DNA of 64,000 nucleotides from assembly GCA_002270565.1 (NCBI GenBank), contig NQMI01000130.1, positions 1 to 64,000 of the forward strand, read 5' to 3'. Under the pieces are notes generated by a model. That model was not told where the DNA came from, searched no databases, and worked only from the letters and a program-made list of their open reading frames with translations. Positions 31,968 to 54,425 of this stretch are shown here, one piece after another. This DNA comes from Stenocarpella maydis (taxonomy: Eukaryota; Ascomycota; Sordariomycetes; Diaporthales; Diaporthaceae). Made by a program: the position numbers and the translations under genes. Numbering within the stretch: the first letter of the stretch is position 1; the number at the start of each line of letters is the position of its first letter.

Positions 31968-32164
31968 CCGGCCTCTGGAAGTCTTCTTTGCCGCACTCAA
32001 CTTCCACACCAAGTCAAGCAAGCAAGAGAAAACCACCGATCCACGACAACTATACGACATCATACACAAACCACAATCCCAGCCGCGCGTATTTATCAAT
32101 AGCAAGCCCTAATACACACACACATCTGCGCCCAGCCTTCCCGCTCCTCACCAACTCACGCAAA

Positions 32165-32383
32165 ACGTCAGACCAGCCGAACGGCACCAGCGGAGGCGGA
32201 GGCGGCGGCGGCCAAGAGCCTCTCCAAGGCATGCTGTCCGACTTTGAACATCAGAGGAGGCGGGATGAGCCCGGTTACCGGCAATCCGGTAGTTCTCATC
32301 TCCGAGGCCCGAGCGGCGGCGACAGTGGCAGCGGCCACGACCCGAACGGGACCGGCCCGAACGGTAGCACCAATGGCCATTGA
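32165..32383 (+). pseudogene. Small Gly-rich protein, copy 1, start codon ACG instead of ATG
   Basis: This is a diverged copy of the gene at 34177. The leader, TATA box and spacing are shared, and the region around the start aligns (ACGTCAGACCAGCCGAACGG here against ATGTCAGGCCAGCAGAACGG). The ATG has become ACG, or was never ATG. From ACG the frame stays open for 72 codons: SDQPNGTSGGGGGGGQEP, then charged residues around FEHQRRRDEPGY, then Gly/Ser/Asn-rich sequence to the TGA. The same frame is open upstream to an ATG at 31904, before the TATA box. Possible readings are a non-AUG start, an internal start at Met in GMLSDFEHQ, or a decayed copy. Confidence 0.5.
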
Positions 32384-33976: not shown

Positions 33977-33985
33977 CTATAAATA
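33977..33985 (+). promoter_or_regulatory. TATA box, copy 2 of the duplicated small-protein locus
   Basis: CTATAAATA preceded by GCCGTCAA, 200 bases before the ATG at 34177. The leader between shares blocks such as CAAGCAAGAGAA with copy 1. Confidence 0.65.
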
Positions 33986-34176
33986 TTTACATCTCGGGCA
34001 AGTGTTCCATGCCGATATCAAATACCAGTTCGAGAAACACAAGCAAGAGAAGCGCGCAGGCCTACCAGAACGATACAGTATGATACTCAAAATTCCACAA
34101 CGACCACAGCGTATCATCAACAAGAGACTCTCCACGCCTAACCCCCCAAAGAACGAGTCCTCGCACAAGACGCAGA

Positions 34177-34461
34177 ATGTCAGGCCAGCAGAACGGTAAC
34201 CACACCAACGGAAATACCGGTGGAGAGACGCCCGGGACCAGGCGCCAGAGAGAAGATGAAGAGTACTACGATCGACTGCAGGCCGACGATCTCCATGAAG
34301 CGTTCTTCCAGACGCAGCAGACCCAGAGCAGCGGTGGAGCAGATGGAACTCGCGCCAACGGCGCCAATGGCGGGCATGGAGCCGGTCGTTTCAAGGATTT
34401 CGATGGTTCCAATGGTTCCAATGGTTCCAACGGCTCCAATGGTGCCAAGGGTGCCCATTAA
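34177..34461 (+). CDS. Small disordered Asn/Gly-rich protein, copy 2
   Basis: I do not recognise a family. One exon of 94 residues starts at the ATG at 34177 (MSGQQNGNHTNGNTGGETPG), has a charged centre (RRQREDEEYYDRLQADDLHE), and ends in four NGS repeats (GSNGSNGSNGSNG). It has no signal peptide or membrane segment and is probably disordered. A TATA box at conserved distance and a leader shared with copy 1 support it as a real gene. Small hydrophilic proteins of this make-up occur among stress or spore proteins, but this is inference. Confidence 0.65.
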   Translation: MSGQQNGNHTNGNTGGETPGTRRQREDEEYYDRLQADDLHEAFFQTQQTQSSGGADGTRANGANGGHGAGRFKDFDGSNGSNGSNGSNGAKGAH

Positions 34462-37083
34462 GGCCGCCTATATGTCCCGGGGAAAGAGGAAGGGGTAGAG
34501 ATAGTGGAGAGCTAGGGGGTAAGAAAGAAACCCTCTTTCCCGTGTCCTTTCGAGAACATGAGGATAGGTGGCACACCTGGTGTCCCTGTCTTTATCCTGG
34601 GCTGTTCTGAGGCGAGGAGCTGGGCGCAATATTCCAACACCCTGAAGTCCGGAACGAAGATAGCACGGTTTGGGTAGCCTGTAGGCTTTTTAATCGACAC
34701 CTGACTAAAGCTACCCCTTGAGATCTATGCATTATACGATACTTTTGTGCCAACGTTCTGCCCTCTGCGCACGCGTTCCATCGGCGAGTTTGTGATTGCA
34801 ATCTGCGTATGGTGTGTGCAACTTGTACTTGGCTCGTGATCCCGATAACCGCGGCCCCAGAATTCCAGAATCTATACACATGTGTGTGAATCATGACGGA
34901 AATCCCGTGGTATTTGTTGCAATGCCGTACGCCGATGGAGCGCAGCTTTGACCGATTCCCATCGCAATATGTCGCTCTTACCAGCTGGCCTCCGGCTGAC
35001 CCCGAAGTGCAACACATATTTCGTGTGAACCTGAAGCATTTGAAAGTTCACGTCTGTTTTAAGACGTCTTTCAACAGAGTGAAGCCTACTGGTCACTACT
35101 TCCAGCAACATTTTCGACTATAATGCTCCAGTCTCATCCTACTTACCCCTAGGGAGTGATTTGTCCACGTAATATTAGTCATAGAACTAAATTACCTTTG
35201 TGTTCTTCTGCATCGCTTGATCTACAGGTTGAATACACGGCACTGTCCGGAAAGATTCAGTGTATGATCTCATTTTCCCCTGGGCCCTGAGGTTGTAGGT
35301 GGACAGCCTGGTCTCTCCGTGCGACCACCGCCTACGACCGATCTTCCTCCGCGACCCTCCTTTCTTCCCGTATGGGAAGTGCATTCTTTGTGTTCCGTGC
35401 TCACACATATTCACAGTTTGCTCCGGGCCATACCTACCTACTTGGGGTACCTTCAGTGACTGTACAACACCAGTCACCAAATGTGCCTCTTCCCCGAGCG
35501 TATACGCGTGCGCCAAGAAGCACCAGAGCCCAATTTCCCCCGCTGTCGACGCTTCAAATGCTGCTCCTGGAATTTACTTTCAATAACTTGTGTTCACAGA
35601 ATGCGCTCTGGGTCTTCTCCACAGCGGGAAACCAAAGCAACCAACCGTGACCAAACCAAGAAGGAAACCCATACCCTCCCCCCCCCCTTGAACAAATCTT
35701 CATAGCACCCGAGACCTCGCCCCAGACACCCACGCCGTCATCAACGGGCCCTGTTCCCACACATGTGATATCCCCCCGACGCTGGCGCGACGACCCCAAT
35801 CGAATAGACGAACAAAAGATGCCAAGCCAGCAAGAAGGAACCAGCGGCCATGCGAAACGGTGGCCATGAGCCAGCCCTCCGCGGCCTGGACCCGGCCGTT
35901 CTGCAGGAGCGGTGGCAGTTTGTCTCGTGCCTTGCGTCGAATAAGACCTCATGCCGCTGTTCGAAGTTTTCTGTAACCCTGCCAGGGGTTGGTTTAGTGA
36001 GCAACACAAGTTGAGCACGTGCGCCGACGTTTGCTACCTAGGTAACCGTAGGTTCAGAAAAGTTCGGGAGACATTGGAACATGCCCTGCTGATGCGCAGG
36101 ATCTTGGCCTGACGCTCTCGACGGGTGAGCGAGAGATTATGGACATTTGTGATAATCATACAAGGTCGTTGTTCTTGTTCCATCCAAGTCTTTCGATCGG
36201 GCATATATATCTCGTCACACGACCCGCAACAGGGCTGACGCCGAACCTTACCCGCCACGAGGGTCCCCGTCTGTACGAATAAGGTGGCCGCCGGGCAGAC
36301 CTGTATGAAGCACGGCGGACACATTCTCGGGAGACTCACACATGAGCCGCCGTCTAAGTCTCTGTGCTTACCCGGGGAGCCAGGGACAGGCATGCTGAAT
36401 GAGCCACTCGGGCAGGAGAAACAATGAAGACCTATCCCAACCCAGAAGCAACACCACCCCATCAGACAATGACAAGCCCGATCCATCGACCCACCTGCGG
36501 AAGGGACCACCCATGTGCGGTAACAGGGACGGCAGCCAACCGAGAGATAGATGGCCCAGGCGGCCCGCGCACGGGCAAAAGCCGCAAGCGAGAGAGAAGA
36601 GGCCCCTCGGACTCGGCTGGGAGACCGTGCGGGCCAGGCAAGCTAGGCCCAACCAATGAAACGTGGTGCATACACGCAGCATATAGGGCGTGGGAGATAC
36701 AGAGAAAGGAGCGTAGCTGGGCTGCATATGGCAGGGATGGGCGGGAGGAGCGAGGAGCGAATGAGTGAGTAGGAGTATGAGTAGCAAGGGGGGAGGCAGG
36801 GAGCTATATGATGCTATCACTGAGCGCATATGCTCTACACAGGACACAGGCACAGAACACACAGCCGACAAGCGCCAGGGAGCGCGGCAGAGGGAGGGAG
36901 GTCAGGTAGCGCGCACACACGGCGGACGCACAACACAAGAGATGACAACACACACACAAACGCGGGAATAAGCATGCAAGCGCAAAGTGTGAGTGACCAG
37001 AGTCTTTTGCCCAGACGGAGTCCCCATCGCCGGAGGCGGGTATTGGTTCCTCGTGTGACGATTCGCCGCAGACCCAGCAGGAG

Positions 37084-37113
37084 CAGGAGGAGGAGGAGGA
37101 GGAGAAGGAGGAA
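37084..37113 (+). repeat. GGA-type purine microsatellite
   Basis: Repeated AGG/GAG units (GGAGGAGGAGGAGGAGG then GAAGGAGG). Confidence 0.85.
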
Positions 37114-37616
37114 GCGAGTTGAATTATCGAGGGCATCGGATCCTCTGCGGCATGCAGTGCACACCCTTCCTCCCCACGTGTCAAATATGCACGTCAAGCC
37201 TGTATTTCCTCTTTGCTAAGGGCAAGGAAGGATTCTGACGGAATGGGCCTTATTGTTAGTTATCTGTCTGCCTGGAACCACTGGGGTAACTAGGTGGTGG
37301 AGGAGGGGGGGTTATGGTGGAGGTGTGGTTGACCTGTCCTGTACCTGCCGTCTACGGTAGGTTGTCATATACGGTCCTCCCAGAGGGTGCCGCTTGCTAC
37401 GTTGCTATGCCTGTGCAAGGGGTGGGGGAGTGACCAAGGATCGGGACGGAGGGGTGTGGGTTTGGCATTTGCCGGCGATATCTCGGCAGCGGCCGCAGCT
37501 CACACTCAGCCTGCTCGCAACGGCGGTGCGAGCACGAAAGGCAGGAGGAGGGACCTTTCGACCGTGGCTTGCAGAAAACAGCTGCAGCAGAGGATGTACC
37601 AGGCAGAAGAGACACG

Positions 37617-37670
37617 GACACGCACGCGCACGCGCACGCACGCACACGCACGCACGCACACACTTTGTGT
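37617..37670 (+). repeat. CACG/CGCA microsatellite
   Basis: Interleaved CACG, CGCA and CACA units run for about 54 bases. Confidence 0.85.
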
Positions 37671-38235
37671 GGGAAGGGCAAAAAAGATAGTGGCAGATGG
37701 GGGTTGTTTGCCGATGCGACGTTCGTCACGGACCGGTCACATCCGAGAAGGGAGCTGAGGTTGGGGGCCAAATCGGGATAGGGCCGGCCGTTCTGGACGC
37801 AGGATGAGATTGCGATAGCCTACCAGAGTTTGGGCTGGCCCTCTCTTAGGTTTTTTCTTTTGGGTTTTTTTTGGGGTTTTTTTTTTGGGTTTTTTCCCCA
37901 AGTGTCTCGCCGGCAGGGCCTGGCGGGTGGGTGCAGCATCAAACCTTGGTGCCCGGTAAGCTGCAATCAAAGCTTAGAGAGAATTAAAACGAAGAAGGGA
38001 GCCGTAATAAAGCAAGTAGTCGGCGGTGAGGCTGGACATGTGACCGAGGTGAGTTAGTTGTTCGCGCGCGCAATCATTCTGGAAGGGGGAACATCATTCG
38101 GGAAGGGCAACAAGGGGGGGCGTACGAGTAGACCCGGATTTGACAACCCTTTTGGGACCATCTGGGCAAAGCAAACTGGTCAACCACGACAGGGTCGAGC
38201 GGCTGGCTGCAGCCATCCAGGGAATCAATTATCGC

Positions 38236-38290
38236 CAGCCCAGCCCAGCCCAGCCCAGCCCAGCCCAGCCAGCCAGCCAGCCAGCCAGCC
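38236..38290 (+). repeat. CAGCC pentamer array passing into CAGC tetramers
   Basis: About six CCCAG-type pentamers are followed without a break by about six CCAG tetramers. Confidence 0.85.
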
Positions 38291-41200
38291 CTTGCCCTTG
38301 CCCCCAAAAGATTTTGGGCTGACGAGCGGTTTGCAGATCGATGGGAGCAAGGAGAAATGGTTACCGAATGCCGCTGCTAGTGCAAGTCCCTGTCCCGTGC
38401 AACAAGGCGCAACAAGGCGGGAAGGTTGCTGCCATTTCGATTTCGCCTGGGCAAAGTCACCTGTAGCCCGCAGGCAAAAAGGTGATGATGACGCGCCTCG
38501 TTGCGTTGCACTAAAGAGTTTGGACGGTATGATTGGGCGTCACAGGCGTTGCGCTGCACTTGGTCGAGAGCATCGGAGGGCAGATCCGAACGGGCGGGCC
38601 GGCAACTCCACGTCCGTCTGCATCACCCCGCGGGGACACTTTTGTTCTTTTGAGAGGAGCATGTTGTGTTGTTATTGAAAAGCTGTGACCAGGTGCGGGC
38701 CCTCGTGCAGACGGGAGGCCGTGCCTAAGCCTTGAAGAGCCAAATCCGAGCGCCAGTGTGTGGAGATGCGGACCTGCAAGCTCGGCGGGATCCCGGAATG
38801 GTTCGTCGTGGCTGCGCAGGCGGACAAAAGTCCCTTACCCGCCAGTCCAGCCAGTCCGTGTGTCATGCACGTGGAAGGAAGACATGAAGGAGACGCAGTG
38901 GGTGGCATTGTGGGAAGCCAGGGGAAAAAAGGCCGCATTGTCTCGCGTAGTTGATTAATGGGACATCGAGGCAGCCGTGACGACTGCTTTGATTTGTCCG
39001 GAGCTCGTGAGAAACAAGATTGACGGGCTCACAAGTCCTAGTGGCATCGACATTGCGAATCCTTCAAAAGCATCCGAATCCTGCGGCACAGGTACGAGGC
39101 TCAAAATGCGTGGCTCCCTCCGCCTTAGCAGCCGACCTGGCCCCACCCGTGGGGAATATCAGTGGCGCTGATGCAAGGGGAGATAGAGGCCGAGAAGGTG
39201 ATGATGCTGAATCGCTGTGTTTGATCTGGTATTAGCACGAACAAGGTGGTGCAGACGGCAACGTGAATCCAGGACCAGACCGGCTGGCCGGACGGGCTGG
39301 TTGGATGGAGGTTGTAAGCAAGCAACAATAGCCGACTCGTGGAGGTGCCCAACGAGCACAGCCGTGAAGATGCTCTCTACACAGCAGCTTGCGTGGGCCT
39401 CAGCTCCTGGCCGGTGTGAGCTTGACGACGCTGCAGGGGGGAGATGGGCAGGATGACCTTGGCACTCGAGGGAGGACAAGATGAAGAATGCCCTGCCCGG
39501 CGATTGTGCCTTGGGGCGACTGTTGCTGGGGCCTGGAGGGGAGTTTCACATTTTAATATATCTCTCTCGCGTGACGATCCTGAGGCCAGAGTGGATGCCG
39601 ATGCTGGTGATGTTGCCACTGCCGCCGCTGCGGCCGATGGGTGTTGGTGATGGATCCTTGGTGGACGGCCTCGGCAGGTGAGACCTGACATGAGACCCCC
39701 AACAAAGATGGCCCGCGATGATCATATCCCCCGTTCCCGATGCGACTCATGCGCCGTACGGCCGGCACGACGCGCAGGTCGATGCATTCTGCTGTCATCA
39801 CCTTGATTTTTGCCCAGAAAGGATGGGTTGGCTCTTGAGGTGCTGAGGCGTGATGAAGCATTTGTCTCGTGCAGCTGGCAGGATGATGGATGCATCGATG
39901 ATTCCCCATAGACATGACGACGGGGGGGGCACGCACAACACGACGCACGCAAGGCATACTTCGCAACAGCATCTCAGATGTGTGATACGGCCAGCTGCGT
40001 CTGCATCACGCGGCGGCGCACACCTGCACTGGGGCCGACGAAGGGCTGCAGGGCGCGCGAGTCGGAGGAATAGACATGCCCTACTGTGTAGCCAGAGACG
40101 TCCAGAGGGAGAGGGCCATTCGACCGGTAGAGCTGTCACCGCGCGCAGTTGTGCCTCCGGGGCTCGTCATCGTCGTGCCCTCTACCGGCGGGCGGCGATT
40201 GGGCCGGGAAGATGCTGTCATTGCACAGGAGGGGCAGGGGGATGCGGAATCCTTCGCGCAGTTTTGGGTTCCCAGCAAACCAGGGATGGAATGCAAAGCA
40301 GAGCGAGCGCGCGCAGGTCACGGTGGTGGTTCTCCTCTCTGGTGGATGCCGGGCTGCGTGTGATTTCGTATGGTTCCAAGGGGGGAGCCAATGCACGTGT
40401 TGGTTCGTCGCGGCCTCCGTTTCTGTCGCATTGTTGCATCGGTCAAGTCAGGGGAGTGATGTAGTTTTGGTTTTGTTCTTTTTCTTGCTTTAGTGGAAAG
40501 TGTTGTTGGTGTTTGGTGTTGGTGCTCAAAATGGACCGTGGACATGGGCGTGGTGGGGAGGCAACTGGGGGATTGATCATCGGTGTTGGGCAGACACCAC
40601 AGCAGACAATCAACACAAAGCATTGTAGGGCGGGCAGGCAGGTCAAGGGTCAAGGGTCAAACAGGTAGGCACATAGTGTCAATCGATGTACGGAGTACCC
40701 TGCAGGGAGGTACGGTGCCAACAGTGCACACAAGTAGTACAGCTAGGGCAAGTGGGGTAGTTCAAGCCACTAAGGGAGCAGCCGAGAGGGGCGGCTTTCT
40801 GATTGGCCGAACAGCCCTGCTTAACCGCGCGAGGGACGTACCTTGCACCAGGCCGGCCCTGGATTGGGCCGACACAGCCGACCTTCCTTCACTACTGCAG
40901 GAGTTGTGTACTATAGTAGTGTAGGCCGCTGCATGTATACATCGTACCATGGCATGGTAGTGTAGCTACCGATTTATTCATCTGCCTGGGAAGTACTGTC
41001 GGGCTGGTTCTGGGTGGTCCCCCGGGCATCTGGGCCTTCCTGGGGTACATAGTGTAGTACCTGGCGGGCTAAATCCAGCAGGGCAGGGAAGGGGCTCGCA
41101 GCCAGCCCCTCGACCCTCGTCGCCTCCACTGTCGAGATCTTTGGACTGTGTTACCCCGGCCCGTGTCACGGGTCGCTGCTGCTGTTTCTGGCCGGTTTTG

Positions 41201-42302
41201 CTGTTTCGGTTCTGATCCCGCTCCTCCTCCTACTGCTGCCTGCACAAGCCTCACCCACTGGGGCAACAAGAGCACACCTGCCCTCATGGCTGTAGCTTCA
41301 ATCCCAGATTGCACGCATGTCCCATGTTCAACGGCCACCGCCACCACCAACAAGATGATGCATTCAACGCTCAAATTTCCTGCCGATCGTGTCCCTCCCT
41401 GGTCGGCAAGAGTCGACAGCCAGGACAGCCTTGTCTGATCGATATCTGCCACCGTGGCTCCATCAATCCATCAATCGGTAGACTATCGATGCCATGCCAC
41501 GGTTGTATCGCGCGGCCTGACAAGACCAAACGGCCCCATCAAGACTCTTGAACAGACTCTGTGGTGATGATGATGTGGTCCGTCACCTTGGAGGCTCAAA
41601 CAAACGCCTCTCTCCCCTGGCCCCAGATGCGGCCCCAGGGCTGACTGGCATGAAATAAATGTTTGATGATGGGCAGGCCGTCGATTCGGCCGCCACCAGT
41701 CCACATTCTCGCCCCCAACCCGATGACCACGTCCTCCGACACACCTGCACGCTTGTCTGCATCTGCCAGCCGGAGGAGCCAAGACGATTGATTTTGCGCA
41801 CCAAGACAGCTAGCGAGAGCACACACGTCGAGACACACTCTGTCTCTCTTACACCGAGAGAACGGTCCCCGGTGCGCACAGCCATTGTCGTCTGTGGCAC
41901 GTCGTTGCACCGTCGAGGCTGAGGTGAGCCACGGCCTCTGTCCCGCTCTGACCAACTTCTTCACGAACTCCCACATGGTCAGAGTATGTCGTCAGTGGTC
42001 ACGGCATCTCAGCCACGTCCTGTGTGCACCAACAGTCTCACGCCCTGGCATCCGGGCCTGGTCTTGAGGTCTTGATGATGATGTACTTGGGGTTGGATTG
42101 AATATCCAGGCCGGGGCCAGGGCAAGGTGTTCGACCGTGGCGCCACGAAGCCGCCATAGGCCCAAAACCAAAGTCTTCGCGAAGCTGGTGGAATTCCGGT
42201 CTGACATGCATGGCCACGTCCACGTCCATTTTCAGCGCCGAGCCTCCGCCTCAGGGCCTGTCCCAATGCCCCGGCCGCACCAGCAGCAATAGCAGCAGCA
42301 GA

Positions 42303-42321
42303 AGAAGCACCACCACCAACC

Positions 42322-42355
<34 letters not shown>

Positions 42356-42364
42356 TCACCATCA
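42303..42364 (+). repeat. CAC/CAT trinucleotide microsatellite
   Basis: A run of CAC/ACC units is followed by a run of CAT/TCA units. Confidence 0.88.
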
Positions 42365-43955
42365 TGAGTAGCAGCAGCATCGGCGTCAGCAATAAACCTA
42401 TCCCACATCACAAGTACCCAGGTAGTGCAAGCCATCATCAGCAGCCCACCCACGCCAACATGTCGCTATGATCGATCAAATATCCGTGCCCACTGGTACT
42501 CCGTACCAGATATGACCCACCGGCTCTCCTACCCTGGTGCCTGCTAATTACAGTACCCATATCAGCCAGACGCGACCGTATGCCCGGGTATCCCTGCGGA
42601 AGCCCACGCCACCGCTGCCGCCATCAGCGGCCCGCTGTGATTGACCTCGATGAGGACAGCATGTATCCGTAGCAGAGGCTTGTCTTCGTCTGCCAGCACG
42701 ACCACCGCGTAGCCGCCCGTCAGCAGATGCTATACGGAGTAATATTGTTGGGTGCAGGGCGGTGCACCAACTGCTCGGCAGACACAAAAACCCTTGTCTC
42801 GCTCCCCACATGAACCGCCTTGCGCAGCAGCAGGGTGGAGAATGCAGAATGCAGCTGCTGGAGACTGCACTTGGTACCTCCAGTACTCGCGCACTCACTG
42901 CGCTACGCTGCTTCGCACTCTCCCCCGCGCTGTAGGCAGGTCAGCACATACGGGAAGTTTGTACAGCTCGCACCGTCATGTCCCGTCATCTTGAGAACTT
43001 GAGAGAGACACCTCGTGAGGCAGGGCAGCCACCCCGCCCGGTTCGGGATACACGCACACTCACACACCCACCCACAAGCCAACCGCTCACTGTACACTTG
43101 ACCTGTGCCTACGTATATACGGTACATACATAGTCTACACACATACCGGCCCGGATTACATGGTGCCTGGTCTGTATCACCTCCTGCCACCCACTCGAGT
43201 GACATTGACACCTCGGGATCCACTTCCCTCGCCCACCCACATCGACACACCAAGACGGATCCTTTCTCACCTCTGTATTCCTGCGCAGCCTGTTGCCTCG
43301 CCTTCTCCAAAGCGGTCCCTGGAATCCTCTTCCTCTACCCTTGCCCTTCTGGCCGAACCTCTCTCATCAGCTGTCAGTCCCTTGTCAGCCGTCTTGTCAC
43401 TTTTTTTCCTCACCAACCTTCCACCAAACCCAATCTCGCTGACATCCTGCATTAGACTTTTCCTTCCCTCCCTCTCCTTCTTCCATTCCTCTGCCAGCTA
43501 CTCTACTCTCTTTGTCCCTTATTACCCGCCTGACGTGCCATTACTGACGCCTTATCCTATCTCATCCATGCTGGCATATCAAACTGGTAGCTAGCCGCCT
43601 CTTTTCCCTTCCTTCCTCATCTGGGCCTAGGCCACTGTACACTATACCAGAGATACCCACCTTGCTCGGTTTTTTTGTTTTTGTTTTTTGTTTTGTTTTT
43701 GTTCTATTTGCCCTTTCTGCGCCGCTGTGTCTTGCAATGAGATGCCAGTCGATCCAAGGTCAACAGTCCGCGCGTTGCTCACCCTAAACTCGCCGCACCT
43801 CTGCCTGCGCTGACACGTTCACTCGCTTCCTCGCTGTTGGCATCGCACTTACCCCTCGCTGCACATCCTTGTAACCTATACCCCGGTGCGCGACGTTCCT
43901 CCTCCGCCCTCAACCCCATACTTGTTCGCCTTCGACGCCGCGATTCATACTCGTC

Positions 43956-46900
43956 ATGGCAGACGACCGGTCAAGAGCCAAGCGGAGCTCTCTGCCCCGG
44001 ATCGACACCACTTCCTTATCTGCCAGGCAGCCCGAGCAGCAGGCCGGCACGACGGATGACAGCAGCCAGTCCCAACAGTCCCGTCCGCGCACCCTCGAGG
44101 ACCGCATCCTCAACTCCGTTGCTAGCTCCCTATCATTATCCCCGGACAAGCTGCGCGAGTCCCTTCTGTCCGGCCGTGGTGGAGACCAAGAATCGGCTGC
44201 GACGAACGGTGGTACGCCCTTCGTCAAGGCCTTCGCGGAGGAAGATATTACCATCCAGACCAAAGTGATAGCTGGTTCCAAGACACTTGCTGATGTGGAA
44301 ACTCGCGTGATACCGTACTCTGCACATTCCCTGCATGGGTCACTTGTCCAGCCCGACGATGAAAACGACCATGGCAACGAACCCGACTCATCTTCGTCAG
44401 AGGAGGAAAGCGCAGGGGCCGAGGTCGACATGCGCTCGGCATCCGTCATGATTGCCCCGGAGAGGATACATCGAGCCAGCCGCATGGACTCGAATCGACT
44501 CCGGCCCAGGAGGCAGGAGCCCCAGGGGCACTCGCGCAACCCGAGCGCCACATCCGCAACTCCAGTAACACGTCTCGACACGCCGAGCGAGGTTGAATTA
44601 TTCCTCGGCTCAGAAAGTGCAGTGTCAAAAGTAGTCGTCCTGAAGCCACGCGCCGGCCTCTTTGATGAGAAACTGGTCGCTTGCCTCACACTAAGCAGCA
44701 TCCCACCCCGGGAACCGGACTCCCCCAAGGTTGAGCTTGTGTCACCCTCGCAAATGTTCTTTGCTGGCTCCCAGATAGCAACAATCAAGCATAACCTCCG
44801 ATCGTTACCTACCGTCGAGCCAAAAGTCATCCCAGAAGTGTGGGTGCCTCTGGACGACCTACCCTCCTCCGACTCAGGCGAGATCGACCGCAGGAAACTT
44901 CGCACATGGGTGCAGAACGCCAACCAAGACGTCTACGAAAAGGTCATGAGCCTTTGCACTGACCAGCCCTTGCAGGCGCCGGCCACCGGGATGGAGAAGA
45001 GTGTGCAGAAGCTCGTCGCCAGGGTACTACAGGTACCGCCAGATCAGGTGGGGATGAACTTCACCTTTGCGCAGTTTGGGGGTGACGAGGTAACCGCCAT
45101 GGCGCTCGTCACAAACGCAAGAGTCGAGTCGATATTCCTGGAAAGCCATGAGATCCTGCAGTCGAACAACACACTGGCCCACCTTGCGACCCTGGCTACT
45201 CAGAGGGGCGGGCTGGCACACAAATGGGCCGCCGAGGAGGAGGAGAAAATTGCTGTCGACGGCGAGGACAGCTCGCCGTACCACTATTTCGATCTCTCGC
45301 CCATGCAGAAGCTATACTTCAACACCGCGATGGGCGGCGACTCGGTCCGCCGCGACGCCGCTGATGGCAGCTACCGGTTCAACCAGTCCCTTCTCCTGCG
45401 TGTGGCAAAGTGCTTCTCGGTACAAGACATTTCAGCCGCTACCGATGCGGTTGTCGGTCATCACTCAATGCTGAGAGCGAGGTTTTCCCGTGTCAGCAAC
45501 GAGTGGATCCAGCGCATATTACCCGAGGTCGACAGCTCATACTCGTTTACCCACTACATCGTCAGCAACAATGAGCAGCTCGAGTCTGCGATTCACCAGG
45601 TACAAACATCGCTCGACATTGAAAATGGCCCTGTCTTTGCTGTGGCTCATTTCTCTACGGCAGATGGACACCAGATGGTATATCTCGCTGCACACCACCT
45701 GGTTGTCGATCTGGTGTCGTGGCAGCTGATCATTCGGGACCTGGATGAGCTCCTCCAGAGTGGCAGCCTATTGTCTCAGAGGTCGATGCCATTCCAGAAG
45801 TGGACCGAGCTGCAAAAGCTCGACGCACAAGTGCCTTCTGGTGGACTGCCTTTTGAGGTATCCCCAGGGGACTTGAGCTATTGGGGCTTGTCTGATTCCC
45901 CAAATACCTATGGGGATGCCAACGAGGTCAGCTTCTCGCTGACCGCCGAGCTGACATATATCCTGGAGACAACGTGCTGCCAGGTCCTACAAACAGACGC
46001 CGTGGATATCTACGTTGCTGCATTGATGCTCTCCTTTGCGCAGACGTTCCCTGACAGGAACGTGCCGGACATCTGGAACCAAGAGCATGGCCGCGATCTG
46101 TGGAGTAATGAAATTGACATCACCGAGACAGTCGGATGGTTCACAACGCTGTGTCCCCTAAATCAGCGAATCACCCCCGCCAGCGACTTTATTGACATCC
46201 TGCGCCGCATGAAGGACACTAGAAGAGCGGTTCCGCACAGGGGCGCACATTACTTCGCCAGCAAGTTCTTCCCTGGCCATCACGGGTTCTCGGCCAGCCT
46301 CGACGACACCAGGCCCTCGTCTCCGAACTTTCTCCAGATCGCAACGCGTGATTGGCCCATTGAGATCCTCTTCAGTTACGCAGGGAGCCTGCAGGACCTC
46401 GGAAAGGACCCGCTCAACGGCGATGGCGTTCTCGAGCAGATGATACTTCCTGGGCGTACCCTTCATTCGCGCACTTCCGACATTGGTCCTGCCGTAGGAC
46501 GTATCGCTGTCTTCGAAGTCAATACCACCGTTGATCAGGGCTCCGCAAAGATCAAGTTTCTGTACAACCGGAACTCGCTTCATGCTGATAAGATCACTGC
46601 TTGGATCAACAATTATGAGCATCTTCTTCTTGAAGCAATTGGCCGTCTTCGCTTTCACGAGCCGGAGCTCACACTGGCCGACATTCCGCAGCTGTGGGCC
46701 ACGGGTGTCACGTACGAAGGCTTGGACAGGTTGAACCGAGTGATAGTTGCAGATCTGGGCTTGACCAGCGTCAAGGATGTCGAGGCTGTATTTCCACTGA
46801 CACCGGTGCAGCAGAGCGTACTCGTGTCCCAGGATCGTCAGATGCGCCTCCACGCCGGAGGCGCCGGTGGGCACGATAACTACAGCTATGTGCCCAACCC

Positions 46901-49900
46901 GAGCAACAACGGAAACGCGAATGCCTGCCATATCCACACAATGTACGAGTTTGCGAGCTCAGATGGCGCACCTGTCGATCTCGAGCGGATCGTCGCTGCA
47001 TGGAGCCAAGTTGTCGCCAGATACCCTGCACTCAGAACCGTCTTCATCGACAGTGTCGCCGAAAAAGGACTCTACAATGCTGTCATACTGAGACGATCGA
47101 GCCCTAACATGCTATTCCTCGACGCGACGCCCAGCGAAGACCCTGTCGATACACTAAACAACCTTCCTCCCCTGACGGCCTTCCCAGCACTCAAGAGCGT
47201 ACCACGACACCGACTCACAGTGTGCCACTCGCCCATGAAGACCGTCATCAAACTAGACGTTTCTGCGGCGCTGTGTGACATGATGAGCGTCAACACTCTC
47301 ATCGCCGACCTGAGAAGGGGCTACGCTACAGGACGAGCATTGCCAGTCACAAGTGGTGATGCCTCAGTATTCTCCTATCCGGGCTACCTCGACATCCTGC
47401 GGGGTCTGGACCGTGACAGGAGCATCGGTTGGTGGCGAGACACGTTGGGCAGTGTTACACAGCCGTGTCTTTTCCCGAGATTGGACTTCTACTATGGCGG
47501 GGAGAGCAAAGATCCAAAGGCTGCTCGCCGATACGACAACGCCCACGCAGAGATATACGACGTCCTCTTGTACAAGGTTGCCGAGTTCGGGAAAGCAAAT
47601 AAAACGACCACAGGCGCGATACTGAGACTAGCATGGGGCCTAGTACTGCGGACTGTCACCGGAAACAGTTCTGTCTGCTTTGGATACAGAGCCCCCGGGA
47701 GATCGGCCACACTGGAAGGTATGAGGGCTGCTGTGGGATGCTTCGCGAACACCATTGCTATAGCTTTCGACCTGTCGCCTTTCAAACCCCTCGCCATCGT
47801 ACTGAAGCAGATCGAAGACGCGTACAACGCCGCCCTGCCACACCAACATATCACGATGGCCGAGGTCCGACACGCTCTGGCAAGTGGAAAGAAGGGAGTG
47901 GCTGCTGATGTTCAGCTCTTCAACTCCGTCTTATCTTTCACGGAGGAGCCGTCAGACCTGATCAGTCGTCTCGGGTCTCGGACGAACTTCGAGCTGCGAA
48001 ATGTGCTGAACCATGAGACCAGCGATTACGACCTGACCATCAACACTCGGTTCAGCATCGCCACTGGCAGACTGGTCGTCGATGTTGGACACTCCATCCT
48101 TTCTGAGACGCAGGCCCAAAACATTGCCAACACATTCGGCAGAGCTGTCAGCGCAATCATCAAGTGCACAATACCATCCACGAATATCGGATCCCTTGAC
48201 CTCTTTTCCGACCGAGACTACGCCCAGATAGTTAATTGGACTACCCCGGCCGATAAAGACTCTCAGAACCAGCAGCGAACCCTACTACATGAATTGGTAT
48301 TTGCGCAGAGTATCACCCGCCCCGACTCGAAGGCAATCTGTGCGCATGACGGCGACCTCACTTTTCTTCAAGTAGAAGTCCTCTCACACCGACTGGCACA
48401 CGTGCTCCTTGAAGCTGGCGTCGTACCGAAGGGGAACACCAAAGCAGCCATTCCAGTGATTCTCGATAAGTCAAAGTGGGCACCGATAGCTCTCCTCGCT
48501 GTGCTCAAGGTCGGTGCTGCTTTTGTGCCTGTGGATGCAGACGAGATGGGCCTTGTTGCCAAGATCGCTGAGCAACTAGGCTCAAGCTGTCGGATTGCTG
48601 TTGCGTGCACATCCGCTGCCGATGCCCTGGACAATTTCACGGAACCCACGCCCCTGTTCGACCGTGTTGTTCGCCTCGACGATGCTCTGATGAAGCGACT
48701 GGAGCGCGAGGCGCCCGTACCTGGGCAACTCCTCCCCCCCAGTAATCCCGAGGATATGGCTTGTGTCTACTTCACAGCGACTTCGTCCAGATCGGTCCGA
48801 GGCATCAGCTTCACGCATGCATCACTGTCGACAGCCTTCATCGGCCAAGGCCCAGCGGCGGGAATCAACAACACGACGCGCGTGCTCCAGCTGTCAAGCT
48901 TCAATGTCGATGTTGCACTGGCCGAGATTTTCACGACGCTTGTTAGCGGTGGCACTATATGCATACCAACCTCTAGAGACAGGTTCAACGACTACACCGG
49001 CTGTGTGTCTAGATTCAGCGCGACCTGGAGTTACATGACGCCTCTGCTCGCCCGGAAACTCAACGTCGACCTCTTGCCCTCCTTAAAGACGGTATGTTTC
49101 CGCACGCGTGGTCTTGACGAGGATACATATGCCCCATGGCGCGGTAGGAAGAGAGTCGTTATGGCGTACGGTGCACCGGATGTCTGCCCTCTGGGAATAT
49201 CATTCCTGGAGATTCATGGCCCGCATCATTTGAAAGCCATCGGAAGACCAATTGCAGGCTCGGCATGGATTGTTTCCGGGGAAGATCACAGAAACCTCAT
49301 GCCTGTCGGTGCGGTTGGAGAGATGGTCATTGAGGGACCAACACTGGGCAGGACTTTCCGACGGTCGTATTTGAACGGTGACCACGAGGACTCACGGGAC
49401 GTCGCAGAGACCCCGGTTTCTCCCGAGAGTCGGAGTCCCTTCTCAGCTGCAAACGCGCAAGGGCATGGCCGCCATCGAAGCCTTGATGACACTGTGGCGT
49501 CAGACGAGCAGAAGGAGAGCAAGAAGCGCTACTATAAGACTGGCCACAGCGTGCGCTACATTGAAGGCGGGCTGATGGAGTACGTCTCATCCAAGCGTGA
49601 CGACCTTGAGATCAATGGGCGTGTTGTCGATCTCGCCGAGCTTGAACAGCAGATCCGTCGCGCACTGGGTCCGGGTATTGATGTAATGGTCGAGGCGCTT
49701 GCTTTCAAGGGCGAGAGAATCAGATCCCCAACATTGGCAGCCTTCCTTGAACTGGGAAGCGATGCCAACACATCCCTTGGCCAACACAGCTTCGACCTGT
49801 CTAACCTCACACCAGAGATCAAGCATCGCGTTTTTGTGTCGCGAAACCTCGTTGAAAAGGCACTGTCTGGTGTCGTACCCGACTTCATGATCCCCAGGAT

Positions 49901-52900
49901 CTTCATCCCCGTCCGACACCTGCCGACGACATATTCGCTCAAGGTCAATCGCCGCAAGCTGCAGAAGGTAATCAAAGGCCTCTCTCGGGACCAGCTACTC
50001 GAGCTCGGAAAGGAGGAGATCCCAAAGCAAGTGGAGAGCGTGAACGCTCTCAAGACATTACCACTGAATGAGCTTGCAGAAAGGGTCAGGGCCGTCTGGG
50101 CTAGGGTCCTCAACGTGGAGCAAGGTGCAATCGATACTGCCAACGGGTTCATCAAGTCAGGCGGTGATGAGATCTCGGCCGCCGAGGTCGTGGTCCAATG
50201 CAGGAGGGAAGGAGCCCATGTTTTCATCTCTGATCTCCTGACTGATGTCCCCCTGGCTGAGATCTGCAGGGACGGCAACCGCTATGAGCTTCCTGCCGGA
50301 GATGTCAGTTTTTCAATGGGGGATAACTCATCCATCGAGCAGCCAGCAGATGCGTCCGTCGGGGAGGATTACGAGGAGACAAGCAGCCCTAGCGCCGCGA
50401 CCGCCCCAGCCCCTCAAGTTATTGAAAAGAGCTTCATTGAGAACATCCTGGCCCCAAAGCTCGGGATCGAGCCCACTCTGATCAGAGACGTCGCCGAGGC
50501 AACTTCAACACAGATCCGCCACATTGAGACTGCCATGCTAACTCAGGGCTCTCAGCGGTCCTCTTTGATCTCACACGGCCAGGGCCCGGCAAGCATCAAC
50601 TATTTCGTCTTCCATTTCACAGCCGCTAGCTCAACCACATCCGTGTCCGCGCGCCGAATCGAAGAAGTCTGCCAGATTCTTGCATCTGTGCATCCTATTC
50701 TACGCACCGCGTTTGTCCCGCACGTCGAAGGCCAGACGAGAAAAGTGTACCAGACCGTCTTGAAGAACCACAGCGTTGATTTCAAGAGCATCCCGCGGGT
50801 ACAGAGCTGGCGCCTCAATGCGGCGGTCGAGAAGGAAATCAGGCGCGATCGCGAGAAATTGCAGAGTAGGAACCAGCTGGATCTGTTTGCGAGGCCGATC
50901 ACGAAGTTCATGTTCCTGGACGCCGGAAAGACTAGCACCCTGGTGCTGCGGCTGTCGCGCGCGCAGTATGACGATGTGTCGATTGGGCTGCTTGTCAAGG
51001 ACCTCAAGAAGCTGTACGACGGCGGGCAGAACCCACCTCGCCGGCCCGGCTTCGCAGATTTTGTCCGCGAGGCCGCACTTGCGAACGTCGGTGGCGAGGC
51101 GGAAAGGTACTGGCGCGGGTTGTTGGAAGGCGCACAGCCGACCTGCGTGGTACGACATCCCAAACCACCAAGATTGAGCAGTGGAGTCCGCACACTGCGA
51201 GAAACGGTGCCTGTCAGCTCCACTGCCATGGGCGGTCTTGGCATTGGCTTCGACACGATACTCAAAGCCGCGTGGGGGATGGTCCTCGCCAGCATCTCCG
51301 GCACCCCTGACGTTGTTTTTGGTGAGGTTGTGGAGGGTTGTCACTCACGCCTTCAGCACCATCTCGGCCCTTCAAGCGTCAATCGCGGCGGCGTTCTCGG
51401 ACCCACGTCGACAATCCTGCCAGTGCGCGTGCGGTTCGCTGACTCACCGACGAGCCCGCTGAACTTGCTCAAGTGTATTGCCGAGCAACGATCTTCCGGT
51501 GTGCCATATGAGAACCTCGGCATGTTGGACATAATCGAAAAGTGCACCCCGTGGCCTTACTGGACTCGGATCAGCACGGTTGTGCAGCACCGTTCCGATC
51601 CGGAGACGGTCTTTGTGGACGACGGTCGGACGAAGAGTTTCCGCCTTGGTGCGGCCGTCTGCAGAGTCAGTGTGACGGAGAGCGAGGTTATTGATGTGGC
51701 GGACTTTGTCGTGAAGAGCGTGGTCCAGAAGAAGAAGGTTGGTGCAGGAGGAGGCGCCAACACTACGGGTGGCAAGCTGCAAGGGCCGACGAGCTGGATG
51801 GAGGAAGAGGAGGAGCTCGAGGTGGCGGTATCTTTCCCGGAGCAGTCTGTCCCCGCGACGCTTGCACAGGAGGTGTTGAGTAAGGTTTGTGGCTATGTTG
51901 GCATGTTGACAGGATTCAGCATCATGCAGTCGGTCGTGCCAACGGCGGCCCAATACTCGACCTTGACGAAGCAGATCCCGCTCCAGCTGCCCGTGTTTGC
52001 AAACAGTCCTACCTCCGCTACCTTTGGCCAGGGAGCGCAGGTCTCTAACCCCTTTGGAAGCGGAGGGTCCACTGGAATCAACTTTGCGCAGCTCGAGGGC
52101 AAGATGTCACCTGGCCAGACAACGACGATCCAATCCACCATCGAAGATGCTTGGCGCAGCACACTCGATCCTCACACCCTCGGTGTCCCTGAGGAGCATG
52201 TCACCTCCGCCGCGTTCTACGATCTGTGGGGGTCACTGATACCTGCCGCGCAGCTCGCCGACTTCTTGACCGAGACGATCCCCGAGCGTCTGGTTGGCGA
52301 TCTGACCACAAACGTGTTTGGAGGCAGCCTAGACGGTTTCCGCGTAACCATGCAGGAGATTGTTAACCATCCCACCATGTTGGCCCAGTTTGAGTTGGTC
52401 GTCCGCAAAGTCTTTGGTGGCGAGGCACGCGACAGATCTAGCAGCTTCAAGAGCACCTCGAGGACCAACAGCCTGCCGCACTCGGTCAGGAAGAGCAACA
52501 GTCTGACCAACATCACCAACGCAACTGGCGCGGTGCGGAAGAGCAGCAGCAACAGCAATCTCGTACCTGGAAATCTCAATCGCGCAGGAACAGTCAGCAC
52601 TTACGAGCCATCAAAACTGGGCCACAGCAGGACCCGGAGTGACTCCACGACAAATACAGCAGTCACAGGCTCGTCCACTGGATCGCCTGCAAAAGCATCC
52701 GACTCAATCTTCCCGAGCCATCCAGCTGTACATCCGCCTATCAATCAACGCAGTGCCCCGCCTGTGCAGCGCCAACATAAAAGGAGCGATAGTAATACTA
52801 GTAACACTACTCGCACGACCGCCCTGACAGACGCAGTCAGCACAGCCCCGGGAAGCAGCAGTGGCAGTGTAGTCACAGCGCCGACCAGCGTCAGCAACAC

Positions 52901-54425
52901 CCCCCCTTTGACCATTACGAGCCCCGGGTCGTCGGCTCCCAGCGAACTACCGGGATCGGCCGTGCATGCCTTGCGCCTGAAGCGTTCGAACAAGAGCCTC
53001 AAGTCCAGCCAACCTGAGTCTCCGATCCTCGGGAGCACCATGATGACGAGCCCGCCACTGGTTCAGGCGGGCTTTTCAGCGACTCGGAAGAAGACCAACC
53101 TTGGTCTGGGAGCCAGTCTGCGACGAGTGGCAAGCACTCTGAGGCCGGGGAGTGCGGGCGGACATAACAGGGAGAACAGCAAAGAGAATATCCTCTCCCG
53201 CTCCAACAGCAACATGCGATCACAACCGCCGCCGCCATCAATCCCTCGTCCGAGCCTTAAATCGAACGGCAGATCCACCTCATCTGGAAGTGACGTGAGC
53301 AGGGACGCGCCCCTGCCGCCGGTCTCGCCGTGGCCCAGGGTGCAGAGCATGGCACCTCAGTTACCACCTTTCCCTCCTTTCACGCCTGTCACGGAGGACA
53401 CCTTCTCGGTAAACGGTAGTGCTGGTGTCAGCCCGGATTTGAGCCTAGGACAGACAAGCACAGGGACCTCACCGGACCTGAGTGCTGAAGCAGCCGAGCC
53501 GCAGAGCGACGAGAGCGGGGAGACGATTGTGGAAAGCAAAGCGGCGAGGAACAGCCAAGGTGGGCAACAAGACGGGCACCTCTCACGGGCGGGGTCGTGC
53601 GGGTCGATGACGGAGGGCTCGAGCGCGGAGGACGTGGATGAGCACATTGATGACCACCAAAGGGCCGAGAACGACGAGGAGAGCACACTCCGGCCGCACC
53701 AGGCGCAGAAGCTCAAGTACCTGTACAGCACAGGCCTGCAGCAACCGCCGCCACCCCGGGTCCAGCTCGAGCAGGCACCGCCGTCTCCGGATATCCAACG
53801 CCAGTCCCTGCAGTCCAATGCCAGCCCATACCGGGAAACCTTCTACATGGAGGAAGACGAGGGGACCGACGACGAGGTGGAGCAAGAAGAGGTGAAGCAA
53901 CATGTGGAGGCCCCGAACGACGCCATGTATGACTCTTACGAGGAGTTTGACGACGCGCCCGAGACGCCGCGCCAGCCGTCGTCGCGGCCCATCACCATGA
54001 TCCACTCGCCTCTGCAGCCGAGCAACACCCGGAGGGACGAGCCGCCCATGCCGCCGGGGCCCATCACGCGCAACAGCCAGCAGCAGCAGCAGCACACGCA
54101 GGACTCCCCGACCATCGTCGAGCTAAAAAGGTCGGCGGCGGCGGCGACAAAGGCTGCACCGGACGGCACGGACGTCATGGACTTTGCGGCGATCGAGGCG
54201 GCCGAGATGGACGACATGGTGTCGCCCCTTACACCGGTGGAGCGGGCGATGCTGTATAAGCAGCAGGGGCTGGGGGGTCACAGAGGGTTGAATCACCGCG
54301 GGGGCCGGGCCGGCCACAATAACGGCAACAACATCAGCCCGCTGACGCCTGGGTATGGTGGGGTCCAGCATGCCCAGGCCCAGGCCGCGCAGCAGGGTAT
54401 GATGGGTGGGTTTCATGCGCTGTGA
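43956..54425 (+). CDS. Pseudo-NRPS: NRPS architecture with catalytic motifs lost, Ser-rich tail
   Basis: A single uninterrupted exon encodes 3489 residues. Domains in order: a carrier-like domain (about 45-105) with GGDQ at 75-78; the C-terminal part of an adenylation domain ending in SGEIDRRKL, where the catalytic Lys is Glu309; a carrier with FGGDE (Glu378); an epimerization-type domain from about 440 with intact HHLVVDLVSW (580-589); a condensation domain from about 946 with SAALCDM in place of HHxxxDG (Ser1103-Ala1104); an adenylation domain with eroded A3 (YFTATSSRSVRG, 1605-1616), YGAPD for YGPTE and YKTGH for YRTGD (His1864); a carrier with GGDE (Glu2072); a condensation domain with SRAQYDD (2334-2340); a carrier-like segment FYDLWGSL (Ser2760); and a disordered tail from about 2830. 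Carrier loading looks impossible in three domains. The family resemblance is certain; the function is unknown, perhaps scaffold or regulator. Confidence 0.9.
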   Translation: MADDRSRAKRSSLPRIDTTSLSARQPEQQAGTTDDSSQSQQSRPRTLEDRILNSVASSLSLSPDKLRESLLSGRGGDQESAATNGGTPFVKAFAEEDITIQTKVIAGSKTLADVETRVIPYSAHSLHGSLVQPDDENDHGNEPDSSSSEEESAGAEVDMRSASVMIAPERIHRASRMDSNRLRPRRQEPQGHSRNPSATSATPVTRLDTPSEVELFLGSESAVSKVVVLKPRAGLFDEKLVACLTLSSIPPREPDSPKVELVSPSQMFFAGSQIATIKHNLRSLPTVEPKVIPEVWVPLDDLPSSDSGEIDRRKLRTWVQNANQDVYEKVMSLCTDQPLQAPATGMEKSVQKLVARVLQVPPDQVGMNFTFAQFGGDEVTAMALVTNARVESIFLESHEILQSNNTLAHLATLATQRGGLAHKWAAEEEEKIAVDGEDSSPYHYFDLSPMQKLYFNTAMGGDSVRRDAADGSYRFNQSLLLRVAKCFSVQDISAATDAVVGHHSMLRARFSRVSNEWIQRILPEVDSSYSFTHYIVSNNEQLESAIHQVQTSLDIENGPVFAVAHFSTADGHQMVYLAAHHLVVDLVSWQLIIRDLDELLQSGSLLSQRSMPFQKWTELQKLDAQVPSGGLPFEVSPGDLSYWGLSDSPNTYGDANEVSFSLTAELTYILETTCCQVLQTDAVDIYVAALMLSFAQTFPDRNVPDIWNQEHGRDLWSNEIDITETVGWFTTLCPLNQRITPASDFIDILRRMKDTRRAVPHRGAHYFASKFFPGHHGFSASLDDTRPSSPNFLQIATRDWPIEILFSYAGSLQDLGKDPLNGDGVLEQMILPGRTLHSRTSDIGPAVGRIAVFEVNTTVDQGSAKIKFLYNRNSLHADKITAWINNYEHLLLEAIGRLRFHEPELTLADIPQLWATGVTYEGLDRLNRVIVADLGLTSVKDVEAVFPLTPVQQSVLVSQDRQMRLHAGGAGGHDNYSYVPNPSNNGNANACHIHTMYEFASSDGAPVDLERIVAAWSQVVARYPALRTVFIDSVAEKGLYNAVILRRSSPNMLFLDATPSEDPVDTLNNLPPLTAFPALKSVPRHRLTVCHSPMKTVIKLDVSAALCDMMSVNTLIADLRRGYATGRALPVTSGDASVFSYPGYLDILRGLDRDRSIGWWRDTLGSVTQPCLFPRLDFYYGGESKDPKAARRYDNAHAEIYDVLLYKVAEFGKANKTTTGAILRLAWGLVLRTVTGNSSVCFGYRAPGRSATLEGMRAAVGCFANTIAIAFDLSPFKPLAIVLKQIEDAYNAALPHQHITMAEVRHALASGKKGVAADVQLFNSVLSFTEEPSDLISRLGSRTNFELRNVLNHETSDYDLTINTRFSIATGRLVVDVGHSILSETQAQNIANTFGRAVSAIIKCTIPSTNIGSLDLFSDRDYAQIVNWTTPADKDSQNQQRTLLHELVFAQSITRPDSKAICAHDGDLTFLQVEVLSHRLAHVLLEAGVVPKGNTKAAIPVILDKSKWAPIALLAVLKVGAAFVPVDADEMGLVAKIAEQLGSSCRIAVACTSAADALDNFTEPTPLFDRVVRLDDALMKRLEREAPVPGQLLPPSNPEDMACVYFTATSSRSVRGISFTHASLSTAFIGQGPAAGINNTTRVLQLSSFNVDVALAEIFTTLVSGGTICIPTSRDRFNDYTGCVSRFSATWSYMTPLLARKLNVDLLPSLKTVCFRTRGLDEDTYAPWRGRKRVVMAYGAPDVCPLGISFLEIHGPHHLKAIGRPIAGSAWIVSGEDHRNLMPVGAVGEMVIEGPTLGRTFRRSYLNGDHEDSRDVAETPVSPESRSPFSAANAQGHGRHRSLDDTVASDEQKESKKRYYKTGHSVRYIEGGLMEYVSSKRDDLEINGRVVDLAELEQQIRRALGPGIDVMVEALAFKGERIRSPTLAAFLELGSDANTSLGQHSFDLSNLTPEIKHRVFVSRNLVEKALSGVVPDFMIPRIFIPVRHLPTTYSLKVNRRKLQKVIKGLSRDQLLELGKEEIPKQVESVNALKTLPLNELAERVRAVWARVLNVEQGAIDTANGFIKSGGDEISAAEVVVQCRREGAHVFISDLLTDVPLAEICRDGNRYELPAGDVSFSMGDNSSIEQPADASVGEDYEETSSPSAATAPAPQVIEKSFIENILAPKLGIEPTLIRDVAEATSTQIRHIETAMLTQGSQRSSLISHGQGPASINYFVFHFTAASSTTSVSARRIEEVCQILASVHPILRTAFVPHVEGQTRKVYQTVLKNHSVDFKSIPRVQSWRLNAAVEKEIRRDREKLQSRNQLDLFARPITKFMFLDAGKTSTLVLRLSRAQYDDVSIGLLVKDLKKLYDGGQNPPRRPGFADFVREAALANVGGEAERYWRGLLEGAQPTCVVRHPKPPRLSSGVRTLRETVPVSSTAMGGLGIGFDTILKAAWGMVLASISGTPDVVFGEVVEGCHSRLQHHLGPSSVNRGGVLGPTSTILPVRVRFADSPTSPLNLLKCIAEQRSSGVPYENLGMLDIIEKCTPWPYWTRISTVVQHRSDPETVFVDDGRTKSFRLGAAVCRVSVTESEVIDVADFVVKSVVQKKKVGAGGGANTTGGKLQGPTSWMEEEEELEVAVSFPEQSVPATLAQEVLSKVCGYVGMLTGFSIMQSVVPTAAQYSTLTKQIPLQLPVFANSPTSATFGQGAQVSNPFGSGGSTGINFAQLEGKMSPGQTTTIQSTIEDAWRSTLDPHTLGVPEEHVTSAAFYDLWGSLIPAAQLADFLTETIPERLVGDLTTNVFGGSLDGFRVTMQEIVNHPTMLAQFELVVRKVFGGEARDRSSSFKSTSRTNSLPHSVRKSNSLTNITNATGAVRKSSSNSNLVPGNLNRAGTVSTYEPSKLGHSRTRSDSTTNTAVTGSSTGSPAKASDSIFPSHPAVHPPINQRSAPPVQRQHKRSDSNTSNTTRTTALTDAVSTAPGSSSGSVVTAPTSVSNTPPLTITSPGSSAPSELPGSAVHALRLKRSNKSLKSSQPESPILGSTMMTSPPLVQAGFSATRKKTNLGLGASLRRVASTLRPGSAGGHNRENSKENILSRSNSNMRSQPPPPSIPRPSLKSNGRSTSSGSDVSRDAPLPPVSPWPRVQSMAPQLPPFPPFTPVTEDTFSVNGSAGVSPDLSLGQTSTGTSPDLSAEAAEPQSDESGETIVESKAARNSQGGQQDGHLSRAGSCGSMTEGSSAEDVDEHIDDHQRAENDEESTLRPHQAQKLKYLYSTGLQQPPPPRVQLEQAPPSPDIQRQSLQSNASPYRETFYMEEDEGTDDEVEQEEVKQHVEAPNDAMYDSYEEFDDAPETPRQPSSRPITMIHSPLQPSNTRRDEPPMPPGPITRNSQQQQQHTQDSPTIVELKRSAAAATKAAPDGTDVMDFAAIEAAEMDDMVSPLTPVERAMLYKQQGLGGHRGLNHRGGRAGHNNGNNISPLTPGYGGVQHAQAQAAQQGMMGGFHAL

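Follow-up and report, generated by a model that had tools for sequence, protein, structure and literature searches.

A conserved synthetase-like protein of the Sordariomycetes that appears to be maintained as a pseudo-nonribosomal peptide synthetase

Can a nonribosomal peptide synthetase (NRPS) lose its chemistry in successive domains and nevertheless be maintained as a protein? The question is raised by a gene in a 64,000-nucleotide stretch of Stenocarpella maydis DNA (contig NQMI01000130.1, positions 1 to 64,000; hereafter the window), which comes from a fungal assembly of 53.5 Mb. An earlier note, made from the sequence of the window, had described here a 10.47-kb frame without a stop and proposed that it encodes a pseudo-NRPS maintained for a non-synthetic role. 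The frame is as described, running on the forward strand from an ATG at 43956 to 54425 (3,489 codons) within a stop-free stretch from 43875 to 54425, and is not broken in the manner of a pseudogene. A Pfam scan of the 3,489-residue protein recognises four Condensation stretches, one AMP-binding and two PP-binding domains, and alignment with other family members and with an intact relative gives the order T1-A(C-terminal piece)-T2-E-C-A-T3-CT-T4-tail (T, carrier; A, adenylation; E, epimerisation-type; C, condensation; CT, terminal condensation domain). One copy of the gene was found in the genome; among the best candidates scored, the runner-up is a 33% identical match in a 7,753-residue NRPS frame. 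The layout of an NRPS is retained in the window protein, but catalytic residues are substituted in successive domains, and our best reading of the sequence comparisons below is that the protein is maintained as a pseudo-NRPS.

Family members were gathered in three protein searches, from which the best 120 of 124, 333 and 310 matches were taken and clustered at 90% identity, and family counts are lower bounds. By assignment, the family has at least 161 members: besides the window protein there are 72 from the Xylariomycetidae and 88 from outside that subclass, and in both groups similarity was the basis for assigning some of them. One member (P0045) is from Thermothelomyces thermophilus ATCC 42464, and Neurospora NCU04531, which Table 2 of PMC9239088 gives as an NRPS cluster gene, may be an orthologue. 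Member genera include Diaporthe, which supplies the closest named proteins among the matches listed (88-91% identity), Cytospora, Cryphonectria, Pyricularia, Thermothelomyces, Chaetomium, Podospora, Coniochaeta, Thyridium, Colletotrichum, Verticillium, Neonectria, Fusarium, Sarocladium, Xylaria, Hypoxylon, Daldinia, Apiospora, Microdochium and Seiridium. The family is spread across many orders of the Sordariomycetes, with order assignments looked up for five lineages and presumed for the remainder. In every lineage found, the predicted proteins are long (1,542 to 3,624 residues, nearly all above 2,280), although their gene models could conceal stops.

The replacements in the window protein are more than chance, because corresponding ones recur in relatives of many orders. 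We tallied each residue among the members having the column, outside and inside the Xylariomycetidae, and among the domain rows of relatives. The phosphopantetheine Ser of a functional NRPS is missing from every carrier domain of the window protein, where Gln78, Glu378, Glu2072 and Leu2761 are found. T2 (44973..45209), recognised by Pfam as PP-binding, has GGDE at 375-378; outside the Xylariomycetidae its Ser occurs in 0/81 members (column absent in 8/89), all 81 carrying an acidic residue (Glu 74, Asp 7), and inside in 19/67 (column absent in 5/72), compared with 133/133 relatives. T3 (50043..50270; GGDE at 2069-2072) has the Ser in 1/89 and 0/71 members, or 1/160 overall, against 367/367 relatives. 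The GGDQ of T1 (44076..44300) is present at 75-78, but the site drifts, reading YGDQ, DGDQ, HVDQ, NVDE or NGDG even in relatives that are 88-91% identical; this relic was delimited by alignment to other members and has no Pfam match in the window protein, the T1 pieces of four other members matching PP-binding, three of them above the cut-off. To the three carrier domains described earlier a fourth has to be added, the overlooked carrier-like T4 (52113..52400), which is Ser-less (WGSL, 2758-2761) and aligns with the C-terminal domain of a Macrophomina phaseolina protein (P0053). No Pfam match to T4 was obtained in the window protein or in a second member (P0061), a PP-binding call being made only in P0053, the intact relative. 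A Ser-less carrier-like domain (WGNL, residues about 5470-5545) also ends P0053, a seemingly complete NRPS, after its CT domain.

The adenylation functions show the same pattern. Of a second adenylation domain only the C-terminal subdomain is aligned (44574..44960), its core being absent and its end motif reading GEIDRRKL, with Glu309 for the A10 Lys. The remaining adenylation domain (48273..49985) has no P-loop, A7 Asp or A8 Arg, and contains the broken A3 loop (FTATSSRSVRG) and the YKTGH (1860-1864) pointed out earlier. In the family, A3 Gly1612 is found in 1/87 members outside and 9/71 inside the Xylariomycetidae (relatives 453/468), the A7 Asp in 1/89 and 1/72 (2/161 overall; relatives 471/477) and the A8 Arg in 0/89 and 2/71 (relatives 471/473).

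Among the condensation-type domains, loss of HHxxxDG holds for two: VSAALCD, with Ala1104 for the catalytic His, stands in the C domain (46773..48230, Pfam Condensation), and SRAQYDD replaces SHxxxDG in the CT domain (50463..51875), which was identified by PDB sequence matches to the CT domain of TqaA (5dlk; window residues 2227-2547, E 1.6e-17). The C-domain His is kept in 5/87 members outside the Xylariomycetidae, all of them Colletotrichum, and in 0/70 inside (relatives 279/285); the CT His is kept in 0/88 and 0/71 (relatives 175/177). The first condensation-type domain, which is of the epimerisation type (45273..46670), keeps its motif (HHLVVD, 580-585). The Glu of its second motif, EGHGRE, is needed for epimerisation; here it is Gln709, close to a newly invariant Trp707, and Glu occurs at this position in 0/89 and 0/72 members (relatives 135/142). 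Orthologues with normal motifs, which would speak against the earlier proposal, exist in part, namely for T2 in 19 Xylariomycetidae and for the C domain in five Colletotrichum; the catalytic losses are otherwise shared by orthologues, the E-domain Glu and CT His being absent from all members that have the columns.

The family was placed in a FastTree of 195 domain rows with coverage of 60% or more, from which close Diaporthales and Xylariomycetidae duplicates had been removed by hand. Its 87 rows (87/87) fall into a single clade with support 1.0, and the first split within this clade separates 30 Xylariomycetidae from 57 others, both with support 1.0. Its sister group brings together three other proteins and the end modules of P0053 from Macrophomina. 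A tree with one Xylariomycetidae row likewise placed 55/55 family rows in one clade, with rows grouping by order. Parsimony on the 87 family rows puts the catalytic losses before the family ancestor; with this number of rows it also suggests, weakly, that the T2 Ser of some Xylariomycetidae is a regain and not a retained residue. In six Hypocreales members (P0069, P0070, P0072, P0074, P0262 and P0268, from Neonectria, Emericellopsis, Mariannaea, Fusarium and Sarocladium) T2 is not alignable while the rest is kept.

Most domains are also conserved far above the segments between them. When the window protein is compared with four Cytospora proteins, identity is highest in the A domain (82.5%), followed by T2 (81.3%), T4 (81.0%), E (78.4%), CT (78.1%) and C (78.0%), and is lower in the tail (62.4%), linker 1 (55.5%), T3 (54.3%) and linker 2 (37.4%). 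In the comparison with ten Sordariales, six domains (E, A, C, CT, T2 and T4) score 50-62%, E being highest at 62.1%; T3 reaches 44.2%, the A C-terminal piece 38.6% and T1 27.8%, and the linkers and tail stay at 20-33% with up to 65% gaps. Therefore T1 and T3 drift and the other domains do not. Structure prediction gives intact A and E folds (models cover A-T3 and A-sub-T2-E), and the predicted structure of the E region (m5c92bcf34407) matches PCP-E of TycA; both the descent from an enzyme family and the predicted fold are those of a pseudoenzyme. Together, the shared losses in 161 members, the single clade, the grouping by lineage and the domain conservation support the earlier proposal of a maintained, non-synthetic protein.

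What, then, has been maintained in the adenylation domain? We mapped its pocket to GrsA numbering through the FD, GGE and YGPTE anchors, using the residues and roles listed in PMC11253843. A HMMER alignment to LgrA agrees at D235; numbering at 299/301 and 330/331 is uncertain by about one residue or more, because HMMER puts gaps there. The pocket residues D1652, Y1693, C1714, R1716, P1745 and L1746 of the window protein are conserved: position 235 is Asp in 161/161 members, 278 Tyr in 159/161, 299 Cys in 159/161, 301 Arg in 159/161, 330 Pro in 155/161 and 331 Leu in 159/161, with positions 236, 239 and 322 variable. Across 97 family sequences thinned at 85%, the eight variable specificity positions have a mean entropy of 0.59 bits versus 1.63 bits for 502 A-domain columns (p 0.0007; p 0.0003 to 0.021 across subgroups and other thinning levels), p-values that serve as guides because pocket columns are not independent of one another. 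In relatives, mean entropy is 3.07 bits at the same positions, 2.51 over all columns and 0.26 at the ATP contacts. For the 11 ATP contacts, most of which are replaced, the family mean is 2.14 bits; they are unusually variable in the Xylariomycetidae (p 0.001, 85% thinning). We also screened the full set of domain rows, 132 from the family and 624 from relatives, for positions fixed in 95% or more of the family but in under 10% of relatives. It gave 21 such new positions, of which the A domain holds 11, including runs at 1714-1717 and 1745-1748, together with 23 lost positions; because all domain rows entered, these figures are a screen only, on which the status as new of T1717, D1721, the neighbours of Y1693 and I1748 rests, the other positions relied on having been recounted. 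Our reading of this pattern is that selection has preserved the old amino-acid pocket for a single ligand that is no longer activated, and a plugged pocket would fit it too.

The poorly conserved ends carry recurring short motifs, for which the patterns were picked after viewing the sequences. At the N-terminus, LPRIDT (residues 13-18; 43992..44009, forward strand, as for all features of this gene) belongs to a motif class found in the first 45 residues of 98/161 members versus 2.2 expected from shuffles, one match (APFVMA) looking spurious. The tail of about 670 residues (52413..54422) is presumably disordered and contains PQLPPFPPFTP (53355-53387), SMTEGS (53604-53621) and VSPLT (54219-54233). 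Leaving aside 8/161 tails too short or unmapped for counting, SMTxGS-like motifs occur in 75/153 tails versus 2.2 expected from shuffles; VSPL[ST]-like motifs occur in 37/37 Diaporthales, 31/51 other and 0/65 Xylariomycetidae tails, and PQLP-like motifs in 37/37, 18/51 and 0/65, respectively. We rejected as a family trait the NDR-kinase-type consensus HxRxx[ST], which occurs 5 times versus 1.0 expected in the window protein and 0-2 times in most non-Diaporthales members (72 proteins examined).

The protein is likely to have another job than synthesis, possibly the binding of a small molecule or of partner proteins, and we put at about 0.6 the probability that it is a pseudoenzyme working by binding rather than by making a peptide, a figure that covers the whole binding reading and so overlaps with the scaffold discussed below. 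On this reading the protein would descend from a working synthetase. In its most specific form, which we offer tentatively and consider more likely wrong than right, a dead synthetase would have become a giant ATP-independent sensor in the ancestor of the Sordariomycetes. Its former amino-acid pocket (D235, Y278, C299, R301, P330 and L331 in GrsA numbering) would bind one particular amino-acid-like ligand, neither needing ATP nor activating what it binds. Partners docking on the short conserved motifs in the disordered ends would then receive the ligand state from the T2-E-C-A-CT-T4 body. The role of a sensor of NRPS intermediates, suggested in the earlier note, gains some support because the pocket is conserved. 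Were the binding reading correct, an entire megasynthase would have been retained for binding, and a conserved 'NRPS' from a class of fungi with many plant pathogens and industrial strains would yield no peptide; were the sensor correct, a fungal signalling protein would be hidden under the label 'NRPS'. Members bear database names such as 'Nonribosomal peptide synthetase 12' and 'non-ribosomal peptide synthetase component F', and because databases label them NRPSs, genome mining would expect products from such genes. The family also offers a directly testable case of an assembly-line enzyme turning regulator.

Several observations weigh against this interpretation. Besides the T2 Ser of the 19 Xylariomycetidae and the C-domain His of the five Colletotrichum proteins, the A5 acid is kept in 152/161 members (88/89 outside the Xylariomycetidae, Asp in 71 and Glu in 17; 64/72 inside, Glu) and the A10 Lys in 87/89 outside and 13/71 inside. 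Outside the Xylariomycetidae the ATP columns are not unusually variable (p 0.71), other residues being fixed there. T3 is conserved less than the tail in the Cytospora comparison, the VSPL and PQLP motifs are absent from all 65 Xylariomycetidae tails, and the share of members with LPRIDT-like or SMTxGS-like motifs is no more than roughly one half to three fifths. Finally, the E domain leaves room for residual chemistry, and conservation of the pocket could reflect a plugged structural core, with Arg1716 where Gly or Ala is usual.

This last point leads to the alternative that fares best, a pure scaffold in which the fold serves as a large platform for docking, the plugged pocket has become part of the structural core, and partners bind the surface and tails. 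The A and E folds predicted to be intact, the recurrence of short motifs in the ends and the large Arg1716 side chain, Arg in 159/161 members, all fit such a platform; it is a poor fit that the A domain holds 11 of the 21 newly fixed positions, with runs at the pocket, and that pocket conservation resembles the outcome of ligand selection. The residue screen, made without coordinates, singled out no conserved surface patch. We regard the pure scaffold as a real contender, if on balance a doubtful one. It is rather improbable that the protein acts instead as a dominant-negative regulator, binding a working NRPS or a phosphopantetheinyl transferase via its carrier or condensation surfaces: Pfam still recognises both domain families and the genome has other NRPSs, such as the 7,753-residue frame (32-33% identical), but no biosynthetic gene adjoins the pseudo-NRPS among the 20 window frames scanned with Pfam. 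We give similarly little credence to a residual or changed enzyme whose epimerisation-type domain would process a substrate supplied in trans, for example on another synthetase's carrier or as a coenzyme A thioester. HHxxxD is kept only in this domain (His580 in 160/160, His581 in 154/160, with 85/88 outside and 69/72 inside the Xylariomycetidae, and Asp585 in 160/160), which is also the domain best conserved with respect to the Sordariales; yet the EGHGRE Glu is Gln or another residue in 161/161 members, the adjoining T2 is without Ser in 129/148 members having the column, and His581 is Arg or Asn in 6/160. That the gene is a tolerated, functionless synthetase in slow decay is very improbable, for although T1 and T3 drift and six Hypocreales members lack an alignable T2, the long predicted proteins in all lineages (gene models permitting), the newly fixed residues, the much slower evolution of most domains than of linkers and the grouping by lineage all speak against it.

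The pseudo-NRPS can be set beside several known systems. The closest is P0053, an NRPS of the Botryosphaeriaceae (5,616 residues) with near-twins P0121 and P0122, whose residues 3172-5536 align with residues 212-2811 of the window protein at 31% identity. The two have in common the order A(C-sub)-T-E-C-A-T-CT-T4, down to the Ser-less T4, but P0053, which is judged intact by its motifs, keeps GGDS, HHLVIDL with EGHGRE, SHALIDG, TSGSTGVPK, YKTGD and SHAQYDG, and has extra N-terminal modules and no long tail. The order T-E-C-A-T-CT is also shared with the aligned row of the Aspergillus udagawae 'nonribosomal peptide synthetase 12' (P0277), which, like TqaA, we take to be of the fumiquinazoline type, as we take the A. 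fumigatus protein P0275 to be FmqA; the difference lies in an identity of 27% to the Xylaria member and in the catalytic motifs being present in the aligned row. Reuse of a dead adenylating enzyme as a sensor is established for the HisRS-like domain of GCN2, which resembles the case proposed here in keeping an adenylating-enzyme fold for binding after the chemistry was lost, and differs in belonging to an unrelated fold family, the binding role of the window protein being a conjecture. We found no prior description of a conserved inactive NRPS of this kind in the open-access literature, by titles and abstracts. The ChNPS6 extracellular siderophore synthetases are, according to PMC2823734, likewise conserved fungal NRPSs with a degenerate A domain (dA-T-C), but they keep one complete A-T-C module and the window protein has none.

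Among the 20 window frames scanned, those with a Pfam match that lie nearest the gene encode a GDSL esterase (at 57.0 kb) and a GH28 enzyme (at 62.6 kb). The earlier note had held that nearby genes show frameshifts; the GH28 gene, the one examined, shows two intron-like GT-AG stretches, as would be expected of a fungal gene. The approximately 13 kb upstream (30700-43900) contain a single frame biased at third codon positions (GC3), 40131-40490, without a Pfam match, and are perhaps non-coding, most frames there being unscanned. An NRPS-like reductase lies about 24 kb from the pseudo-NRPS gene, and frames at 17010-19973 (-), 21047-21979, 26469-27640 (+) and 7707-8525 (-) make up a possible small secondary-metabolite cluster comprising this reductase (AMP-binding, PP-binding, NAD_binding_4), an aldo/keto reductase, cupins and an af470-like monooxygenase. 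Elsewhere in the genome, the 7,753-residue NRPS is a single open frame at about 73-95.5 kb of another contig (G000:C298), and a further NRPS frame (L009) encodes 4,674 residues.
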